Assembly (NCBI GenBank): GCA_035574315.1
Contig: DATLYW010000026.1
Location: 1-64,000 of the forward strand
Origin: Candidatus Zixiibacteriota bacterium
GTDB lineage: Bacteria; Desulfobacterota; Binatia; UBA9968
Direction of reading: 5' to 3'
Length of the DNA stretch: 64,000 nt
Positions 2,551 through 47,133 of this stretch are shown piece after piece. The notes under the pieces were generated by a model. That model was given only the letters and a program-made list of their open reading frames with translations. It was not told where the DNA came from and did not search any database. Positions within the stretch are counted from its first letter, which is position 1. Each line of letters starts with the position of its first letter. The position numbers were made by a program, and so were the translations under genes.

Positions 2551-4332
2551 GTGGCCAGAGCACAGAGCAGGGTGGAAAAAAAGCAGCCGGAGTTCGGCTC
2601 GGACGTGGTGGTCGATCTCATGAAAGCCTTCGATATCGAGTACGCCGCGTTCAATCCCGGGGCGACGTTTCGCGGAATTCACGACTCGATCGTGAACTAC
2701 GGCGGAAACCACCGGCCGGAAGTGATCTTCTGCAATCATGAGGAGATCTCGGTCGCCCTCGCGCACGGCTACGCCAAGGCGAAGGGGCGGCCGATGGTCG
2801 CGATCGTCCACAACATGGTGGGGCTGCAGCACGCCAGCATGGCGATTTTCAACGCCTGGATCGATCGTGTGCCGATCATCATCCTCGGGGGCACCGGCCC
2901 GATGAACACCAAACACCGTCGGCCGCGCATCGACTGGATTCACACCGCGCTCGTGCAGGGCAATCAGGTGCGCGACTACGTCAAGTGGGACGATCAGCCG
3001 TACTGCCTCGCCGACGTGCCGGATTCGTTCATCCGCGGTTACCGGATTGCGACGACCGAACCGACGGCGCCGGTTTACATCAACTACGACGCGGACATCC
3101 AGGAGGACCGGGTGACGGGAGCGGTCGAGATTCCCGACGTCTCCCGGTATTCGCCACCGGCTCCGATGCAGGCCAATCCGGAGGCGCTGCGGAAAACCGC
3201 CCGGCTGCTGGTCGAGGCGCAATGCCCGATCATCATCGCGGACTACCTGGGCCGCAATCCGGCGGCGGTGCCCGCGCTGATCGAGCTGGCCGAGCTGCTC
3301 GGAGCCCCGGTGGTCGACAAGGGAAACCGCTACAACTTTCCCAGCACGCACCCGCTCGATGCCACCGACGGGGCCCGGGAGCTGTTGCAAAGGGCGGACT
3401 TCGTGCTGGCCCTGGACGTCTTCGACCTGTTCGGCTCGCTCACCACGGTGAGCAAGCAAACCCGAGCCTGCGAGTCGATACTCAATCCGGCGGCCAAGAT
3501 CGCCCATATCTCGATGAACGATATGCTGGTGCGCAGCTGGGCAGCCGATTACCAGGCGCTGCAGGCCGTCGACATCCCGATGTCGGGCGACACCTCCGTC
3601 GCCGTGCCCGAGCTGATCCGCCTCTGCCGTGAGCTGATCGGCAGCGACGGCCAGAAAAAAGCGGCGATCGAGGCTCGGGCCAGGGAGCTCGGAGAAAAGC
3701 ATCGCAGCCGGCGCGCGAAGTGGCTCGCCGACGCCCGGGGCAAGTCCGGCCAGAAGGAAATCTCCACGGCCTGGCTCGCGCTCGAGCTGGGCGAGACGAT
3801 CAAGAAGGAGGATTGGGTGCTGGTCAACGGCACGTCCAACGGCTGGGCGCGGCGCCTTTGGGATTTCAACAAACCGAACCAGTTTCTCGGCGGCAGCGGA
3901 GGAGCCGGGGTCGGCTACGGCATGAGCGCGGCGATCGGGGCGGCGCTGGCTTTGAAGGATACGGGGAAGCTGGCAGTGGACATCCAGTCGGACGGCGACC
4001 TGCTCATGACATCGAGCTCGCTGTGGACGGCCGCGAAACATCGCATCCCGCTGCTGATCGTCATGCACAACAACCAGTCGTACTACAACTCGGAGGAGCA
4101 CGGGATCGAGGTGGCCAAGTTCCGCGGGCGGCCGGTGGAAAACGCCGGCATCGGAACCCACGTGGACGATCCCGCGGTCGATTTCGCCAGGATGGCGCAG
4201 TCGTTCGGGGTTGCGGCCGAAGGACCGGTCCGCCGCCCGGAGGAGCTCAGGCCCGCACTGGAGCGCGGCCTGAAGTACGTCAAGGAGAAAAAGCTCCCTT
4301 ACCTGGTCGACGTGATCGCGGAGCCGAGATAG
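2551..4332 (+). CDS. thiamine-diphosphate-dependent enzyme (acetolactate synthase-like)
   Basis: A 593-residue protein with the three-domain layout of the acetolactate synthase/benzoylformate decarboxylase superfamily. The cofactor-activating glutamate is likely in HEEISVALAHGYA (near residue 65), and the C-terminal cofactor motif is SDGDLL...HNNQSYYN (near residues 480-513), a variant of GDG-x(n)-NN. Family members condense or decarboxylate 2-oxo acids or acyl-CoA compounds. The GTG start at 2551 follows AGAGGAGGG. True acetolactate synthase is less likely, because the SDGDLL/NNxSYYN variant is typical of uncharacterised catabolic homologues and no regulatory subunit or ilvC is adjacent. Confidence 0.8.
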   Translation: MARAQSRVEKKQPEFGSDVVVDLMKAFDIEYAAFNPGATFRGIHDSIVNYGGNHRPEVIFCNHEEISVALAHGYAKAKGRPMVAIVHNMVGLQHASMAIFNAWIDRVPIIILGGTGPMNTKHRRPRIDWIHTALVQGNQVRDYVKWDDQPYCLADVPDSFIRGYRIATTEPTAPVYINYDADIQEDRVTGAVEIPDVSRYSPPAPMQANPEALRKTARLLVEAQCPIIIADYLGRNPAAVPALIELAELLGAPVVDKGNRYNFPSTHPLDATDGARELLQRADFVLALDVFDLFGSLTTVSKQTRACESILNPAAKIAHISMNDMLVRSWAADYQALQAVDIPMSGDTSVAVPELIRLCRELIGSDGQKKAAIEARARELGEKHRSRRAKWLADARGKSGQKEISTAWLALELGETIKKEDWVLVNGTSNGWARRLWDFNKPNQFLGGSGGAGVGYGMSAAIGAALALKDTGKLAVDIQSDGDLLMTSSSLWTAAKHRIPLLIVMHNNQSYYNSEEHGIEVAKFRGRPVENAGIGTHVDDPAVDFARMAQSFGVAAEGPVRRPEELRPALERGLKYVKEKKLPYLVDVIAEPR

Positions 4333-4353
4333 CCGTCGCCCGGAGGCGCGCTG

Positions 4354-6603
4354 CTAGCGCTGGGAGAAGTCCCGGAAATTGAAGGCGAAAAAGGTGGTGA
4401 GGCAGAAGTCCTTGATCATCGCCGAGGTCAGCCGCAAGGGGCGGATCTCCCACCAGCGCATTTGCTTGATGTTGGCGATGGTTTGCGACCAGATCCGCTG
4501 GAGCTCCTGCCGGGAGTAGATGACCCGGTTGTTGAGGGCGTCGAATTTGACGAACTGGAACCTGGAGATCGCCGGCAGGAGCCCGCGCATCCTGGCGTAA
4601 GCGGCCTGCCATTCGGGAATGCGGTTTCGGAAGCGAACGCCGGCGAGCATGTTGCACATCTCGTCGAGCCAGCGGCGCGCCGCCTCGCCTTCGATCGCGC
4701 GCAGTTCGTGAATCCGGTCGCGCAGCTGCTCCCACTGGCGCAGCACGCGGTTGAGGTCGTGGCGGCTCTTGAGGATCCGGCTGGCGAGCTCGTCGAGCGG
4801 ATCGAGGATGGCCCTGGCGCGCTCCGAGAGCGTGTCCCTCGCGCTGGCGTAGGTGGCCTGCAGCTCGCCGATGCGCAGCGCCTGCCAGACCTCGGTTTGG
4901 AGCTTCTGAACCTGCTCGAGCAGCCGTTCCTCGGTTTCGGTTTTCTTGCGGGTCTGCAGCCAGACCTCCTCCATTTCCTTGAGGAACTTCGCCCACGACA
5001 GGAACAACCGCACGATCTCCTTGGTCCGTTTCCAGGCGTGCACCGGCAGGGAATCGATGGCATAGCCGGGACGGCGCGCCTTGCGGTCCTTCAAGCGGAA
5101 GAAACCCGCGATCATCGGGTGTTGCCGCTCGATCAGGGCGGCGTTCTTGTACCAGAAGAAGATCGACATCAGGTTCCAGTAAGCCCGCGGGTGATGCGTC
5201 CAGCGGGAGAGGATTCTGATCATGTTCTCCTTGCTGTAGAACATCTTCCACGCGTCTTCGTACGCCTCGGTCCATTCCTCGGTGGTCATGCGCGGATGGC
5301 GGATGGTGGCGTGGAACGAGTCGCGCTTGTTGAAGTCCGGGTCCATCCACTCGCCGCGTCTTTTCATCTCGCGGTGATCGTGGGAGCCCGGCAGCGGCGT
5401 CAGCATGAAGAACGAGGCCTGATCGGGCCCGATCTCTTCCATCAGAAAGCGGATGTCCCGGCGCACCTGTTCCTTGGAGTCCCACGGAAGACCGATGATA
5501 TATCCGGTATGGACCACGACGCCCGCGTCGTGCCATTCCTTGATGATGTCGCGGTACTCCTCGACGTTGTTTTGCTTCTTGCCTTCGGCTTTGAGATTCT
5601 CGGGATTGACGCTTTCCATCCCGATGAACACTTGCGTGCACCCCGCCTTGGCCGCAAGCTGAACGAAGTCTTTCGGCTTTTTCGCGAGGTCGACCTGGAT
5701 CATGAAGGTTATCTTGATCCCTTCCTCGCGCAGCTTGATGATCTCCTCGAAAGTTTCCCGCCACAGCTTCTTGCGCGCGAAGTTGTCGTCGGTGAAAAAG
5801 TAGAACGAAACCCCGTGTTCGAGGTAGTTCTTACGCAGCATCTCCGCGATGCTTTGCGGGCTGCGCTCCCTCATCTTGCGACCCTGAACGTTGATGATCG
5901 TGCAGAAGCTGCAGGAGAAAGGACATCCCCGCGAAGTGTCGGCCGTTCCGAACGAGGGGTAGGCGAAGTGGCGCATCGTTTTCGGGCTCGCCTTGGGCAG
6001 GGGCGCCGAACCGATGTCGACGAGGTTCTGCAAATCCTGAGCGAAGCTGTAAATCGGCTTCAGCCGTCCGCCGAGAAAGTCGGACAGGATCGTCTCCCAC
6101 CGGCCCTCGACCTCTCCCGAAACGACGCAGATCGACTCGCGAACCAGCTCCTGGATCTCCGGTTCCTGCTCGCCCAGCATGTTGATCGTTCCGCTGGTGT
6201 GAAAGCCGCCGATGACGACGGTGATGCCGGCGGCGCGCAGCGGGCGCGCGATGTCCACGGCGCGCGGAAACTGGTTGGTCTGCACGCCGACCAGGCAGAC
6301 CAGCAGTTTGGTGCCGGGCCGGCGGCTCCAGCGTATGATTTTCTTGAGCGGGACTTTTTCGGCCGTTTCGTCGTACGTGACGACCTCGATCGGAAGGTCA
6401 CCGAAGACGCGGCGCTGCTTGATGTCCTCGGTGAGGCCGTGGAGGACGTTCAGCGTGTTGCTCGGCAGCACGCCTTTCCAGAATCGAATGACGTAGCCGT
6501 CGTCGTCGTATTTCGAAGGCTTGATGAGAACGACGCGCAATCGCCTGATCCGCGGGTCGATCTCGATCCTCGCCTCCGCGGTGCTTGTAAGTCGATGCGA
6601 CAT
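4354..6603 (-). CDS. B12-binding radical SAM protein with long helical C-terminal extension
   Basis: Residues 1 to about 200 form a cobalamin-binding-like domain (VVIGGFHTSG near 129-138). The radical SAM cluster motif is C227-x3-C231-x2-C234, followed by a TIM-barrel region with EEIGPDQASFFMLTPLPGS near 388-406. Such enzymes use a [4Fe-4S] cluster, S-adenosylmethionine and often methylcobalamin for difficult C- or P-methylations or ring chemistry. From about residue 480 to 749 the protein is helical, with heptad-like stretches (EERLLEQVQKLQTEVWQAL), which is not part of the usual fold. It is transcribed divergently from ftsE and ends 21 bases from the convergent thiamine-diphosphate gene. 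Substrate not recognisable. Confidence 0.8.
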   Translation of the reverse strand: MSHRLTSTAEARIEIDPRIRRLRVVLIKPSKYDDDGYVIRFWKGVLPSNTLNVLHGLTEDIKQRRVFGDLPIEVVTYDETAEKVPLKKIIRWSRRPGTKLLVCLVGVQTNQFPRAVDIARPLRAAGITVVIGGFHTSGTINMLGEQEPEIQELVRESICVVSGEVEGRWETILSDFLGGRLKPIYSFAQDLQNLVDIGSAPLPKASPKTMRHFAYPSFGTADTSRGCPFSCSFCTIINVQGRKMRERSPQSIAEMLRKNYLEHGVSFYFFTDDNFARKKLWRETFEEIIKLREEGIKITFMIQVDLAKKPKDFVQLAAKAGCTQVFIGMESVNPENLKAEGKKQNNVEEYRDIIKEWHDAGVVVHTGYIIGLPWDSKEQVRRDIRFLMEEIGPDQASFFMLTPLPGSHDHREMKRRGEWMDPDFNKRDSFHATIRHPRMTTEEWTEAYEDAWKMFYSKENMIRILSRWTHHPRAYWNLMSIFFWYKNAALIERQHPMIAGFFRLKDRKARRPGYAIDSLPVHAWKRTKEIVRLFLSWAKFLKEMEEVWLQTRKKTETEERLLEQVQKLQTEVWQALRIGELQATYASARDTLSERARAILDPLDELASRILKSRHDLNRVLRQWEQLRDRIHELRAIEGEAARRWLDEMCNMLAGVRFRNRIPEWQAAYARMRGLLPAISRFQFVKFDALNNRVIYSRQELQRIWSQTIANIKQMRWWEIRPLRLTSAMIKDFCLTTFFAFNFRDFSQR

Positions 6604-44744: not shown

Positions 44745-45135
44745 TCTCTAGCGGCGGCTATCGTCAGGCCCTTTGGGGATTGAAATTTCAGCCTCCGAGA
44801 TTCCAGCTCCAAAGCTTCCCGGGCGATGCCGTGCTTCCGTGCCATCGTGTCATGACCGAGTGCCAGCGATGACACGGGGGCTACCGGCGATTTCAAGACA
44901 TGCCGTGTTTTCAACAAGTTGACTGTTGGCATCAAGCTTGCCACTCATCCAGTCGAGCCGTCCATCCCGGGCGGCCACTCGCCCGAAAAGCCGAACTCTT
45001 CGCAAGGAGAGGGCGGAAAGCCACGGGTCGGATGCGGTGAGGGGGCCGGGGTTCGCGTCCGACGGCCGGGTTGCCGAAAGCGAGCGAAGCGGTGTGCTCG
45101 TACGCCGACGCGCAACCTCTGACGTGGACGGGCCG
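44745..45135. other. long intergenic region, no gene supported
   Basis: This 391-base gap contains an inverted repeat GTGTCAT/ATGACAC near 44848-44875. A minus-strand frame (44741-44944) has a mildly protein-like tail but no ribosome site or family match. It may be the remains of a decayed gene. Confidence 0.4.
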
Positions 45136-45798
45136 ATGAAACGCAATACCGTCGAACTTCACGGCGACGATTACGAGATCCAGTTTCCGGACGAATCCGC
45201 CGCCGAGCCAGTTCCCAGGCGACGGTCCTACGCCCGCTGTCTGCGGGCGCTCGGGCAGGCGCTCGAGAGCCGGCGGCTCGCCAGCGTCGATCTGGAGGTC
45301 GTGGACGGCATTTACGTCGTTCGAGGGACCGTGATTCCGAAGGAGCACGCGAACAAGTCTTTTCTCAGGGTCATGCGCGACCTCGTGAAGAAAGCGTTGC
45401 GTGAGCGGGAAGGACAGGGGAGAAGCGGAGATCAGGTCGCCCTTCGCTACACGGCGGAAGAGATCGAACGGCTGGATTCCCGGGGTCGGATGAAGCGGCA
45501 GAAACCCGACGCGATGCCCGATCCCCACAGCCTCTCTCAGATCCTGCGGGGCGCCGGCTCCTATCTGGACCACCGAATCGAGACCGCGCTGGTGGGGATC
45601 TCGATCAAAGACCGCTGGGTAACTTTGCGCTACCGCACGGTGGAAGGTAGATTGGAGCAGGCCAAACAAGACCTCGAGTACTTTTACGATTACTGGGTCA
45701 AGATGTACCTCCAACGCGCCAATCGGCCGCCATCCCCCTCGCCTCATGATCCTACGCTGATCGTTACGTGGGAAGGCCTGCGAAAGCGTTACGGCTGA
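45136..45798 (+). CDS. hypothetical protein (220 aa)
   Basis: A mixed alpha/beta, charged protein with no signal peptide. Residues 1-30 are acidic; YARCLRALGQALESRRLASV and FLRVMRDLVKKALREREGQG are amphipathic helices; the end has WVTLRYRTVEGRLEQAKQDL and a proline-rich tail. The initiation site is weak (GGACGGG upstream of ATG 45136). An earlier start would add about 70 arginine-rich residues and is unlikely. No family recognised. Confidence 0.55.
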   Translation: MKRNTVELHGDDYEIQFPDESAAEPVPRRRSYARCLRALGQALESRRLASVDLEVVDGIYVVRGTVIPKEHANKSFLRVMRDLVKKALREREGQGRSGDQVALRYTAEEIERLDSRGRMKRQKPDAMPDPHSLSQILRGAGSYLDHRIETALVGISIKDRWVTLRYRTVEGRLEQAKQDLEYFYDYWVKMYLQRANRPPSPSPHDPTLIVTWEGLRKRYG

Positions 45799-45850: not shown

Positions 45851-45926
45851 CCGGTTTGGAGACCGGCGGCGCCGTCACGAGCCCCACAGTTTCCGACTTC
45901 TGGCGGCGAGCCGGTTTCTCGACCGG
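45851..45926 (+). promoter_or_regulatory. two matching 16-bp dyads in the cbtB leader
   Basis: CCGGTTTGGAGACCGG at 45851-45866 and CCGGTTTCTCGACCGG at 45911-45926 differ at only three central bases and start exactly 60 bases apart. Each can form a CCGGT/ACCGG stem. The 3' arm of the second includes the first two G of the ribosome site GGGAGG (45925-45930). They could be operator sites or RNA hairpins gating translation. Sequence is direct; role inferred. Confidence 0.55.
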
Positions 45927-45937
45927 GAGGAACGGCC

Positions 45938-46126
45938 ATGTTGAGAACCGTTTCAACTCGCGTGTCGCTCGCCGTGCCGGAACCGCTGCGGTTCGCATGC
46001 CTTTCGGCGGCATTGCTCGTCGTCACGTTCGCCGTCCTTCACGTTTTGCTGGCCGCAACCTACCCGCCGGTGCACGACGCGCTGCACGATTTCCGCCATG
46101 CGCTGGCCGTCGTTCCCTGCCATTGA
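45938..46126 (+). CDS. cbtB: CbtB-type cobalt transporter subunit
   Basis: A 62-residue protein with one membrane helix (ACLSAALLVVTFAVLHVLLA) and the CbtB C-terminus VHDALHDFRHALAVVPCH, a His-rich tail likely to bind metal. CbtB is a predicted subunit of cobalt uptake systems with CbtA in many bacteria. GGGAGG lies seven bases before the ATG at 45938. Its stop overlaps the next start (TTGA). No B12 riboswitch core motif was found in the short leader. Too short to be found easily by size filters. Confidence 0.75.
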   Translation: MLRTVSTRVSLAVPEPLRFACLSAALLVVTFAVLHVLLAATYPPVHDALHDFRHALAVVPCH

Positions 46127-47133
46127 AAAGGCTCGCCGCCTGCCTGCTTGCGCTCTGGGCGGCGGGTGAAGCCGCGTTCGCCGCGGAAGATCTAAAGATA
46201 CGGCTCGACATGTCTCCGCCGTCCGGGCGAGTCCGTCCCTTTTTGGATACCGCTGCGATGAGCGTGCACGTCGCCGATCGCGACGGCCGGCCGCCGTTTC
46301 GGGGAAACGTCACCATCCGGATCACGGCCCCGGAGCCCGGTCGCTTCTTTTCAACCGATTATCCGCGGGTCGAAGGTACGGAGCTGGCGGAGTTCCGTTT
46401 GCCCTTGGACCACCGGGGCAAAGCGGAGTGGAGGTATCTGTTCCCGATTCGAGGAGAGTACGCGGTTGTCGTTGCCGCCGAAAGCAACGACGGGAAACGC
46501 GGTGCAGAGCTCTTCCGCCTTAGGATCCCGGAGAACAGGGAGAAGTGGGTCCTGGCCGGCGTGTTCAGCGCCGGTCTCTTTCTCCTCGGAATTGCCGCCG
46601 GACGGCTCTTCACCGCGACGGGGGCGGAATCCACAGGAGCGCTCGCGGTAGCCGTCCTGGCCGCTTCGGCATGTTTGCTCGGTTCGATTTCATCGCGCGC
46701 CTCCGCGCAGGAAGGGGGAAAGCCGGCGGGTCGCCTCGAGGTCGGGCCTGCGGAGGTCGGCCGTCCGGCGTCGATTCAGTGGCGCGCTCTCCCGGAGGCC
46801 GGCGAGCCGAGGGAAGCGGAGCTCTCGCTCGGGATCACGCACGAAGAAAAGCGGAAAACGGTTTTCTCGATCGAGAAGGTTCGCGTTCCCGGCTCGTTTT
46901 CGATGAAGCTTCAGTTTCCGGACGGGGCGATCTACCGGGTAACCGCGCAGGCGCTTTTTCCCGACGGAAGCTCGTTCCGTTCGGAACGGACCGTCGCCGT
47001 GAGCGCCGCCGACCCTCCCGCCGGAGCTCGGCTCCGGGCAGTCCTTTTTTTCCTCGGCTGGACGGCAGCCGGACTGGCAGCGGGGCGCTGGAGTCGCAAG
47101 GCGTGGCCGAGACCTTCGGACCGCGGTCAATAG
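46123..47133 (+). CDS. membrane protein with FixH/YtkA-like domains, coupled to cbtB
   Basis: A 336-residue protein. A TTG start overlaps the cbtB stop. A signal sequence (LAACLLALWAAGEAAFA) precedes an extracytoplasmic beta domain of about 110 residues (PFRGNVTIRITAPEPGRFF, AEWRYLFPIRGEYAVVV) similar in style to YtkA/FixH domains. Two membrane helices (residues about 143-160 and 170-187) are followed by a second, similar beta domain (residues about 205-300) and a last helix. It is not CbtA, which has five helices. A role in metal handling is inferred from the coupling. Confidence 0.65.
   Translation: MKRLAACLLALWAAGEAAFAAEDLKIRLDMSPPSGRVRPFLDTAAMSVHVADRDGRPPFRGNVTIRITAPEPGRFFSTDYPRVEGTELAEFRLPLDHRGKAEWRYLFPIRGEYAVVVAAESNDGKRGAELFRLRIPENREKWVLAGVFSAGLFLLGIAAGRLFTATGAESTGALAVAVLAASACLLGSISSRASAQEGGKPAGRLEVGPAEVGRPASIQWRALPEAGEPREAELSLGITHEEKRKTVFSIEKVRVPGSFSMKLQFPDGAIYRVTAQALFPDGSSFRSERTVAVSAADPPAGARLRAVLFFLGWTAAGLAAGRWSRKAWPRPSDRGQ

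Follow-up and report, generated by a model that had tools for sequence, protein, structure and literature searches.

CbtAB, CbtC-CbtG and CbtX are predicted cobalt transporters, and in the NikKMLQO system NikK and NikL replace NikN, some of them occurring without NikMQO (PMC2667541). In Pseudomonas denitrificans coenzyme B12 represses cbtBA 43-fold (PMC8123684), and in Methylococcus capsulatus the knockdown of cbtB improves growth at 1 uM CoCl2, less cobalt acting likewise, which was read by the authors as a relief of cobalt toxicity (PMC13108547). The locus described here, in the window (the whole stretch of 64,000 nucleotides that was analysed), carries a cbtB gene followed directly by a gene other than cbtA, whose product is referred to below as the partner. 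In the literature searched we found no paper describing this protein together with CbtB, and plasmid records annotate it as 'hypothetical protein'.

The two genes of the locus and their products

The cbtB gene (45938 to 46126, forward strand, as are all features of this section) encodes a type-B CbtB of 62 amino acids with one membrane segment, and a Shine-Dalgarno-like GGGAGGA is read at 45925 to 45931, 5′ of its ATG. The assignment of this small protein to CbtB, made in the initial annotation, was confirmed by a match to the Pfam profile PF09489 above the cut-off (30.3 bits against 27, E 4.6e-7). The score against NCBIfam TIGR02459 (hypoth_equivalog), however, was 26.5 bits, under the cut-off of 64.4, and we therefore regard the 62-residue product as a divergent CbtB-domain protein and not as a TIGR-defined CbtB. 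By profile search it is the one CbtB copy of the source genome (G000). Its C-terminal motif, HDALHDFRHALAVVPCH (46073 to 46123), contains residues H46, H50, R53, H54, C61 and H62, which are invariant in the 20 CbtB sequences of both types in alignment A4 and are plausible candidates for metal ligands. The second type, found in the Binatia genomes G002, G003, G016 and G019, has the C-terminal end HDARHAAGFPCH with a spacer ahead of the motif; this spacer of ~10 residues between helix and His motif is present in the CbtA-linked type and missing here.

The partner gene (46123 to 47133) starts inside the cbtB stop, the two sharing a common TTGA, and adjoins cbtB without a gap; it is an in-frame open reading frame for 336 amino acids, with homologues in 16 other Binatia genomes. 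The TTGA overlap noticed earlier is thus present in the window, but its exact letters vary among relatives, where the junction reads CTGA, CTAA or CTAG; what is kept is the closeness or overlap of the two genes and their order. The Pro-Cys-His end of CbtB involves CCN-TGY codons, which in every case place an NTG in the partner frame only a few nucleotides ahead of the stop; judging from the reading frames, this NTG might serve as the partner start where the overlap codon is CTA.

The AlphaFold model of the partner (mean pLDDT 84.7) recovers the two exported beta domains and three membrane helices of the initial annotation, and adds a signal-peptide-like N-terminal helix at residues 2-20, MKRLAACLLALWAAGEAAFA (46126 to 46182). 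In the predicted layout, this helix is followed by the exported beta-sandwich domain 1 (residues 24-135, 46192 to 46527), by membrane helix 1 (residues 139-163, 46537 to 46611) and membrane helix 2 (residues 170-185, 46630 to 46677), both also visible in the hydropathy, by the exported Ig-like domain 2 (residues 203-292, 46729 to 46998), modelled separately with a mean pLDDT of 90.8, and by membrane helix 3 (residues 300-326, 47020 to 47100), with RWSRK at its C-terminal end. Domain 1 carries the conserved motifs STDxPxxEGxxL and PIRGxY (alignments A1 and A3) and matches macroglobulin/Ig-like structures (best Z 8.7), and domain 2 has an Ig-like structural match with Z 11.7 and an rmsd of 1.9 over 90 aligned residues. 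These matches are to generic Ig and macroglobulin domains, so the fold search was set aside as a functional hint; a PDB sequence search with alignment A2 returned weak matches to unrelated repeat domains.

The FixH/YtkA-like label of the initial annotation is not supported, as the window protein matched zero Pfam families at E up to 10. In whole-Pfam scans of its homologues every family stayed below its cut-off: YtkA appeared below cut-off in two distant homologues (in one of them with 15.2 bits against 25.9; best E 0.035 among 14) and FixH was not matched, and membership in these families was rejected. Across the alignment of the partner family, P, G, D, E and aromatic residues occupy invariant positions, and conserved acidic residues and structural motifs are present; no His, Cys or Met is invariant. 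Many homologues outside Binatia begin domain 2 with a His-rich stretch; it was discarded as a general metal site because most Binatia, the window protein included, do not have it.

Occurrence of the pair and of CbtA

Among 58 genomes of the source class, Binatia, the partner is held by 17, and in 16 of these a same-strand cbtB immediately precedes it, a pairing far beyond chance; in the 17th (G027) the cbtB gene is truncated by a deletion that takes out its tail. When alignment A1 was run against 84,980 species genomes, 26 loci came up. Fourteen of these belong to groups other than Binatia, among them Chloroflexota, cyanobacteria, Bacillota (Paenibacillus, Lihuaxuella, Marinithermofilum), Verrucomicrobia, Lentisphaerae and Oligoflexaceae, and a CbtB of the same type stands next to the partner in 13 of the 14. 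Furthermore, 17 of the 292 cyanobacterial genomes searched hold the partner, all 17 with CbtB directly upstream, the pair being no local peculiarity. The partner is split in two genes, one per exported domain, in L073, L074, L077 and L084, and helix 2 of the fused partner is the counterpart of the signal-peptide region in the separate domain-2 protein of these split versions. At the three Bacillota loci CbtB is the last gene of the unit. A repeat-like protein was also observed directly 3′ of CbtB in all three, L073 (7192-9540), L079 (7024-7689) and L082 (7233-8897).

Profile searches for CbtA (PF09490) found no match in the 98.6%-complete source genome, a question raised in the initial annotation, and none above cut-off in any partner-bearing Binatia genome or in the 29 partner-bearing genomes outside Binatia. 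CbtA follows the other type of CbtB in the four Binatia genomes named above, and no genome among the 58 has both CbtA above cut-off and the partner. At these four cbtB-cbtA loci (L055, L056, L057 and L058) we also observed a TonB-dependent receptor nearby in every case and a DUF6580-type membrane protein in L055, L057 and L058; CobJ/CbiH is not above cut-off in the four genomes. The receptor, by eye a BtuB, was rejected as such on its NCBIfam score, well under cut-off.

Damaged copies of the unit were seen in Binatia (L047, 9732-9938; L048, 2240-3471; L053, 1851-2858; L052, around 10754). In G013 an extra cbtB is followed by a truncated partner, in G022 the partner is split by a frameshift and in G025 it has an in-frame stop; together with the deletion in G027, these copies suggest that the pair may be dispensable in Binatia, and assembly error is a possible origin of the damage.

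Cobalamin and metal genes around the pair

With Rfam models, a cobalamin riboswitch was found directly 5′ of the unit in L075, L078, L079, L080, L082, L083 and L084. One is present at six of the 17 cyanobacterial loci, two of these being the genomes of L078 and L080, and a permissive Rfam search of the riboswitch-free Nostocales-type loci found none. The genes cobM, cobJ and cobI adjoin the pair in L077, cobB in L084 and cobW in L078, and further neighbours are CbiX in L084 and a tetrapyrrole methylase in L079. The corrin-ring marker CobJ/CbiH is above cut-off in 10 of the 14 non-Binatia partner-bearing genomes. Recurring in distant bacteria, often under a B12 riboswitch, the pair looks like a widespread and overlooked version of cobalt uptake; on balance we favour reading it as a metal-acquisition unit of the envelope that originally served, and most commonly still serves, cobalt uptake for cobalamin, with the partner in CbtA's place.

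In the Oligoflexaceae locus L081 (6660-7910) an AAA+ protein, ChlI-like/LonB-like by Pfam, comes after the CbtB unit, and a similar-looking one does so in the Lentisphaerales locus L084 (7092-8318), where CbiX comes next; a chelatase or a protease link is possible for both.

Another division of labour, possible in our opinion but doubtful, is that the pair is a metal-capture module loading a separate permease (CbiMQO, HupE or other), in the manner of CbiN or NikK/NikL. Co-operons with cbiMQO and hupE favour such an accessory role: in the cyanobacterial loci L103 and L104 the gene order is cbtB, partner, cbiM, cbiQ, cbiO (cbiM, cbiQ and the ABC ATPase of L103 being confirmed by Pfam), and in L106 a HupE gene lies 3′ of the pair. 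Of the 30 genomes searched, 17 encode CbiM and 14 HupE, and the single-span architecture with exported domains, as well as the replacement of NikN by NikK/NikL and their occurrence apart from NikMQO, would also suit it. However, CbiM in L103 is already equipped with a PDGLE (N-type) domain, and six pair genomes with CobJ (G064, G065, G066, G068, G069 and G071) have neither CbtA nor CbiM nor HupE, the importers that the searches covered, all three being likewise missing from the source genome. Such genomes without a known permease favour a self-sufficient role, and in the six with CobJ the pair is a testable cobalt-importer candidate. The boldest version, that CbtB and the Ig-domain protein alone form a widespread B12-riboswitch cobalt importer without a multi-helix permease, and that the Binatia unit left the B12 regulon to supply metal for another purpose, seems to us rather unlikely.

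Against the favoured reading, neither gene of the pair encodes a recognisable polytopic permease, and the partner has no conserved His, Cys or Met. Cobalt uptake by the pair also has to be set against the situation in Binatia, where the Rfam search found no cobalamin riboswitch 5′ of the pair at any locus; in the window, neither a cobalamin riboswitch nor B12 genes linked to the pair were found. CobJ/CbiH is above cut-off in only two of the 58 class genomes, and neither in the source genome, whose match is a uroporphyrinogen-III methyltransferase, nor in any Binatia pair genome. Neither MetH nor methylmalonyl-CoA mutase turned up in the 1.96 Mb of the source genome searched, window included. 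The initial annotation suggested that the pair could transport or chaperone metal in an alternative way, and comparison partly supports this through the recurrence across phyla without CbtA, with riboswitches and with B12, CbiMQO and HupE neighbours. In the source organism the case for cobalt is indirect, with neither a riboswitch 5′ of the pair nor CobJ/CbiH.

Corrinoid salvage, by contrast, is encoded in the source genome by an operon at about 220-228 kb of contig C12 (L176, 143-8341). It is led by cobalamin riboswitches scoring 97.6 and 92.7 bits and has genes for a TonB-like protein, a BtuB homologue (best model a B12 receptor, 289.5 under the cut-off of 599.7), cobU, cobT, cobS and a BtuFCD-type binding protein, permease and ATPase. 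Two such strong riboswitches indicate that Rfam works in this clade, ruling out its failure there, and that the pair lies outside the B12 regulon in this organism. A different riboswitch, c-di-GMP-I-GGC, lies 5′ of the locus at 44981 to 45079 of the forward strand (61.2 bits, cut-off 59); as it heads the open reading frame at 45124 to 45798 (forward strand, 224 residues, matching no Pfam family), it was rejected as a regulator of cbtB, and its position suggests that the 224-residue protein is under c-di-GMP control. In L041 a c-di-GMP-I riboswitch (4288-4389) heads a homologue of this protein (4446-5111) at a distance of about 4 kb from the pair, and its proximity to cbtB in the window therefore seems to be incidental.

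As Binatia retain the CbtB ligands, the source organism probably uses the pair for a divalent, cobalt-type metal, handled outside the B12 switch. A reading that we think less likely is that the unit handles nickel, zinc, copper, iron or general metal stress, and that in Binatia it is unrelated to cobalt and B12. The missing riboswitch and CobJ and the unrelated catabolic neighbours of the Binatia pair would agree with this, and so would the cyanobacterial plasmid copies, which lie among heavy-metal P-type ATPases, Nramp, ZupT, a multicopper oxidase and ArsR/SmtB and make another metal possible. On the plasmids L118, L119 and L121 pair and riboswitch were observed together inside these metal-handling clusters. 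Against another metal, a cobalamin riboswitch stands about 20 bases before the cbtB coding sequence in three of the four plasmid copies, and the invariant CbtB ligands are the same in Binatia. That the pair aids the uptake or handling of corrinoids and not of free cobalt appears quite improbable: control by a B12 riboswitch, its presence in corrinoid salvagers such as the source organism and in Binatia without CobJ would fit, but in the source genome it lies outside the salvage operon and without a riboswitch, in other genomes it accompanies de novo synthesis (CobJ in the 10 of 14 genomes given above) and metal permeases, and a tail with His and Cys is better matched to a free metal ion.

Proposed mechanism and comparison with known systems

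In the envelope unit that we favour, CbtB, with its one helix, would capture the metal by its C-terminal tail, H-x3-H-x2-R-H-x6-C-H. This tail is probably on the outer side of the inner membrane, where the basic residues before the CbtB helix would place it. The partner, its two exported Ig-like domains anchored by three helices, would stand where CbtA otherwise would be, and might either form a passage together with CbtB or keep the metal at the membrane until a separate permease takes it over. The conserved pairing, the absence of CbtA and the linkage to riboswitches and B12 genes in other phyla are direct observations and the domain layout comes from a predicted model, while the side on which the tail lies, its binding of metal and any transport are inferences. 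The occurrence of CbtB apart from CbtA makes the role of each testable independently, and a family so far carried as hypothetical gains a context.

Compared with described proteins, the partner recalls PmoB/AmoB of particulate methane/ammonia monooxygenase in its domain order, which in PmoB is beta domain, two helices, beta domain, and PmoB/AmoB came up at rank 15 of the Foldseek matches; the whole-chain TM-score of about 0.19, however, speaks of a generic Ig-like/cupredoxin resemblance, and a sequence relation was not found. With FixH/YtkA the partner shares an exported beta sandwich and a membrane helix, but it has two such domains, both Ig-like by the structural matches listed, and three helices. 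CbtC-CbtG and CbtX, predicted like CbtAB to transport cobalt, were compared by name only and not by sequence, and the partner may be one of them. The pair differs from CbiMNQO/NikKMLQO in that 13 of the 30 genomes searched, among them that of the source, have it but not CbiM, and in whole-Pfam scans no family reached its cut-off for the partner; it resembles them in its link to cbiMQO in two cyanobacterial loci, and CbiN or NikK/NikL in the role of small membrane proteins with exported parts. From CbtAB, itself a predicted system (PF09489 with PF09490), the pair is set apart by the absence of CbtA and by a partner without detectable relation to it, but it shares with CbtAB the CbtB family with its invariant C-terminal His/Cys motif and, in many relatives of the pair, the control by a cobalamin riboswitch and the neighbourhood of B12 genes.
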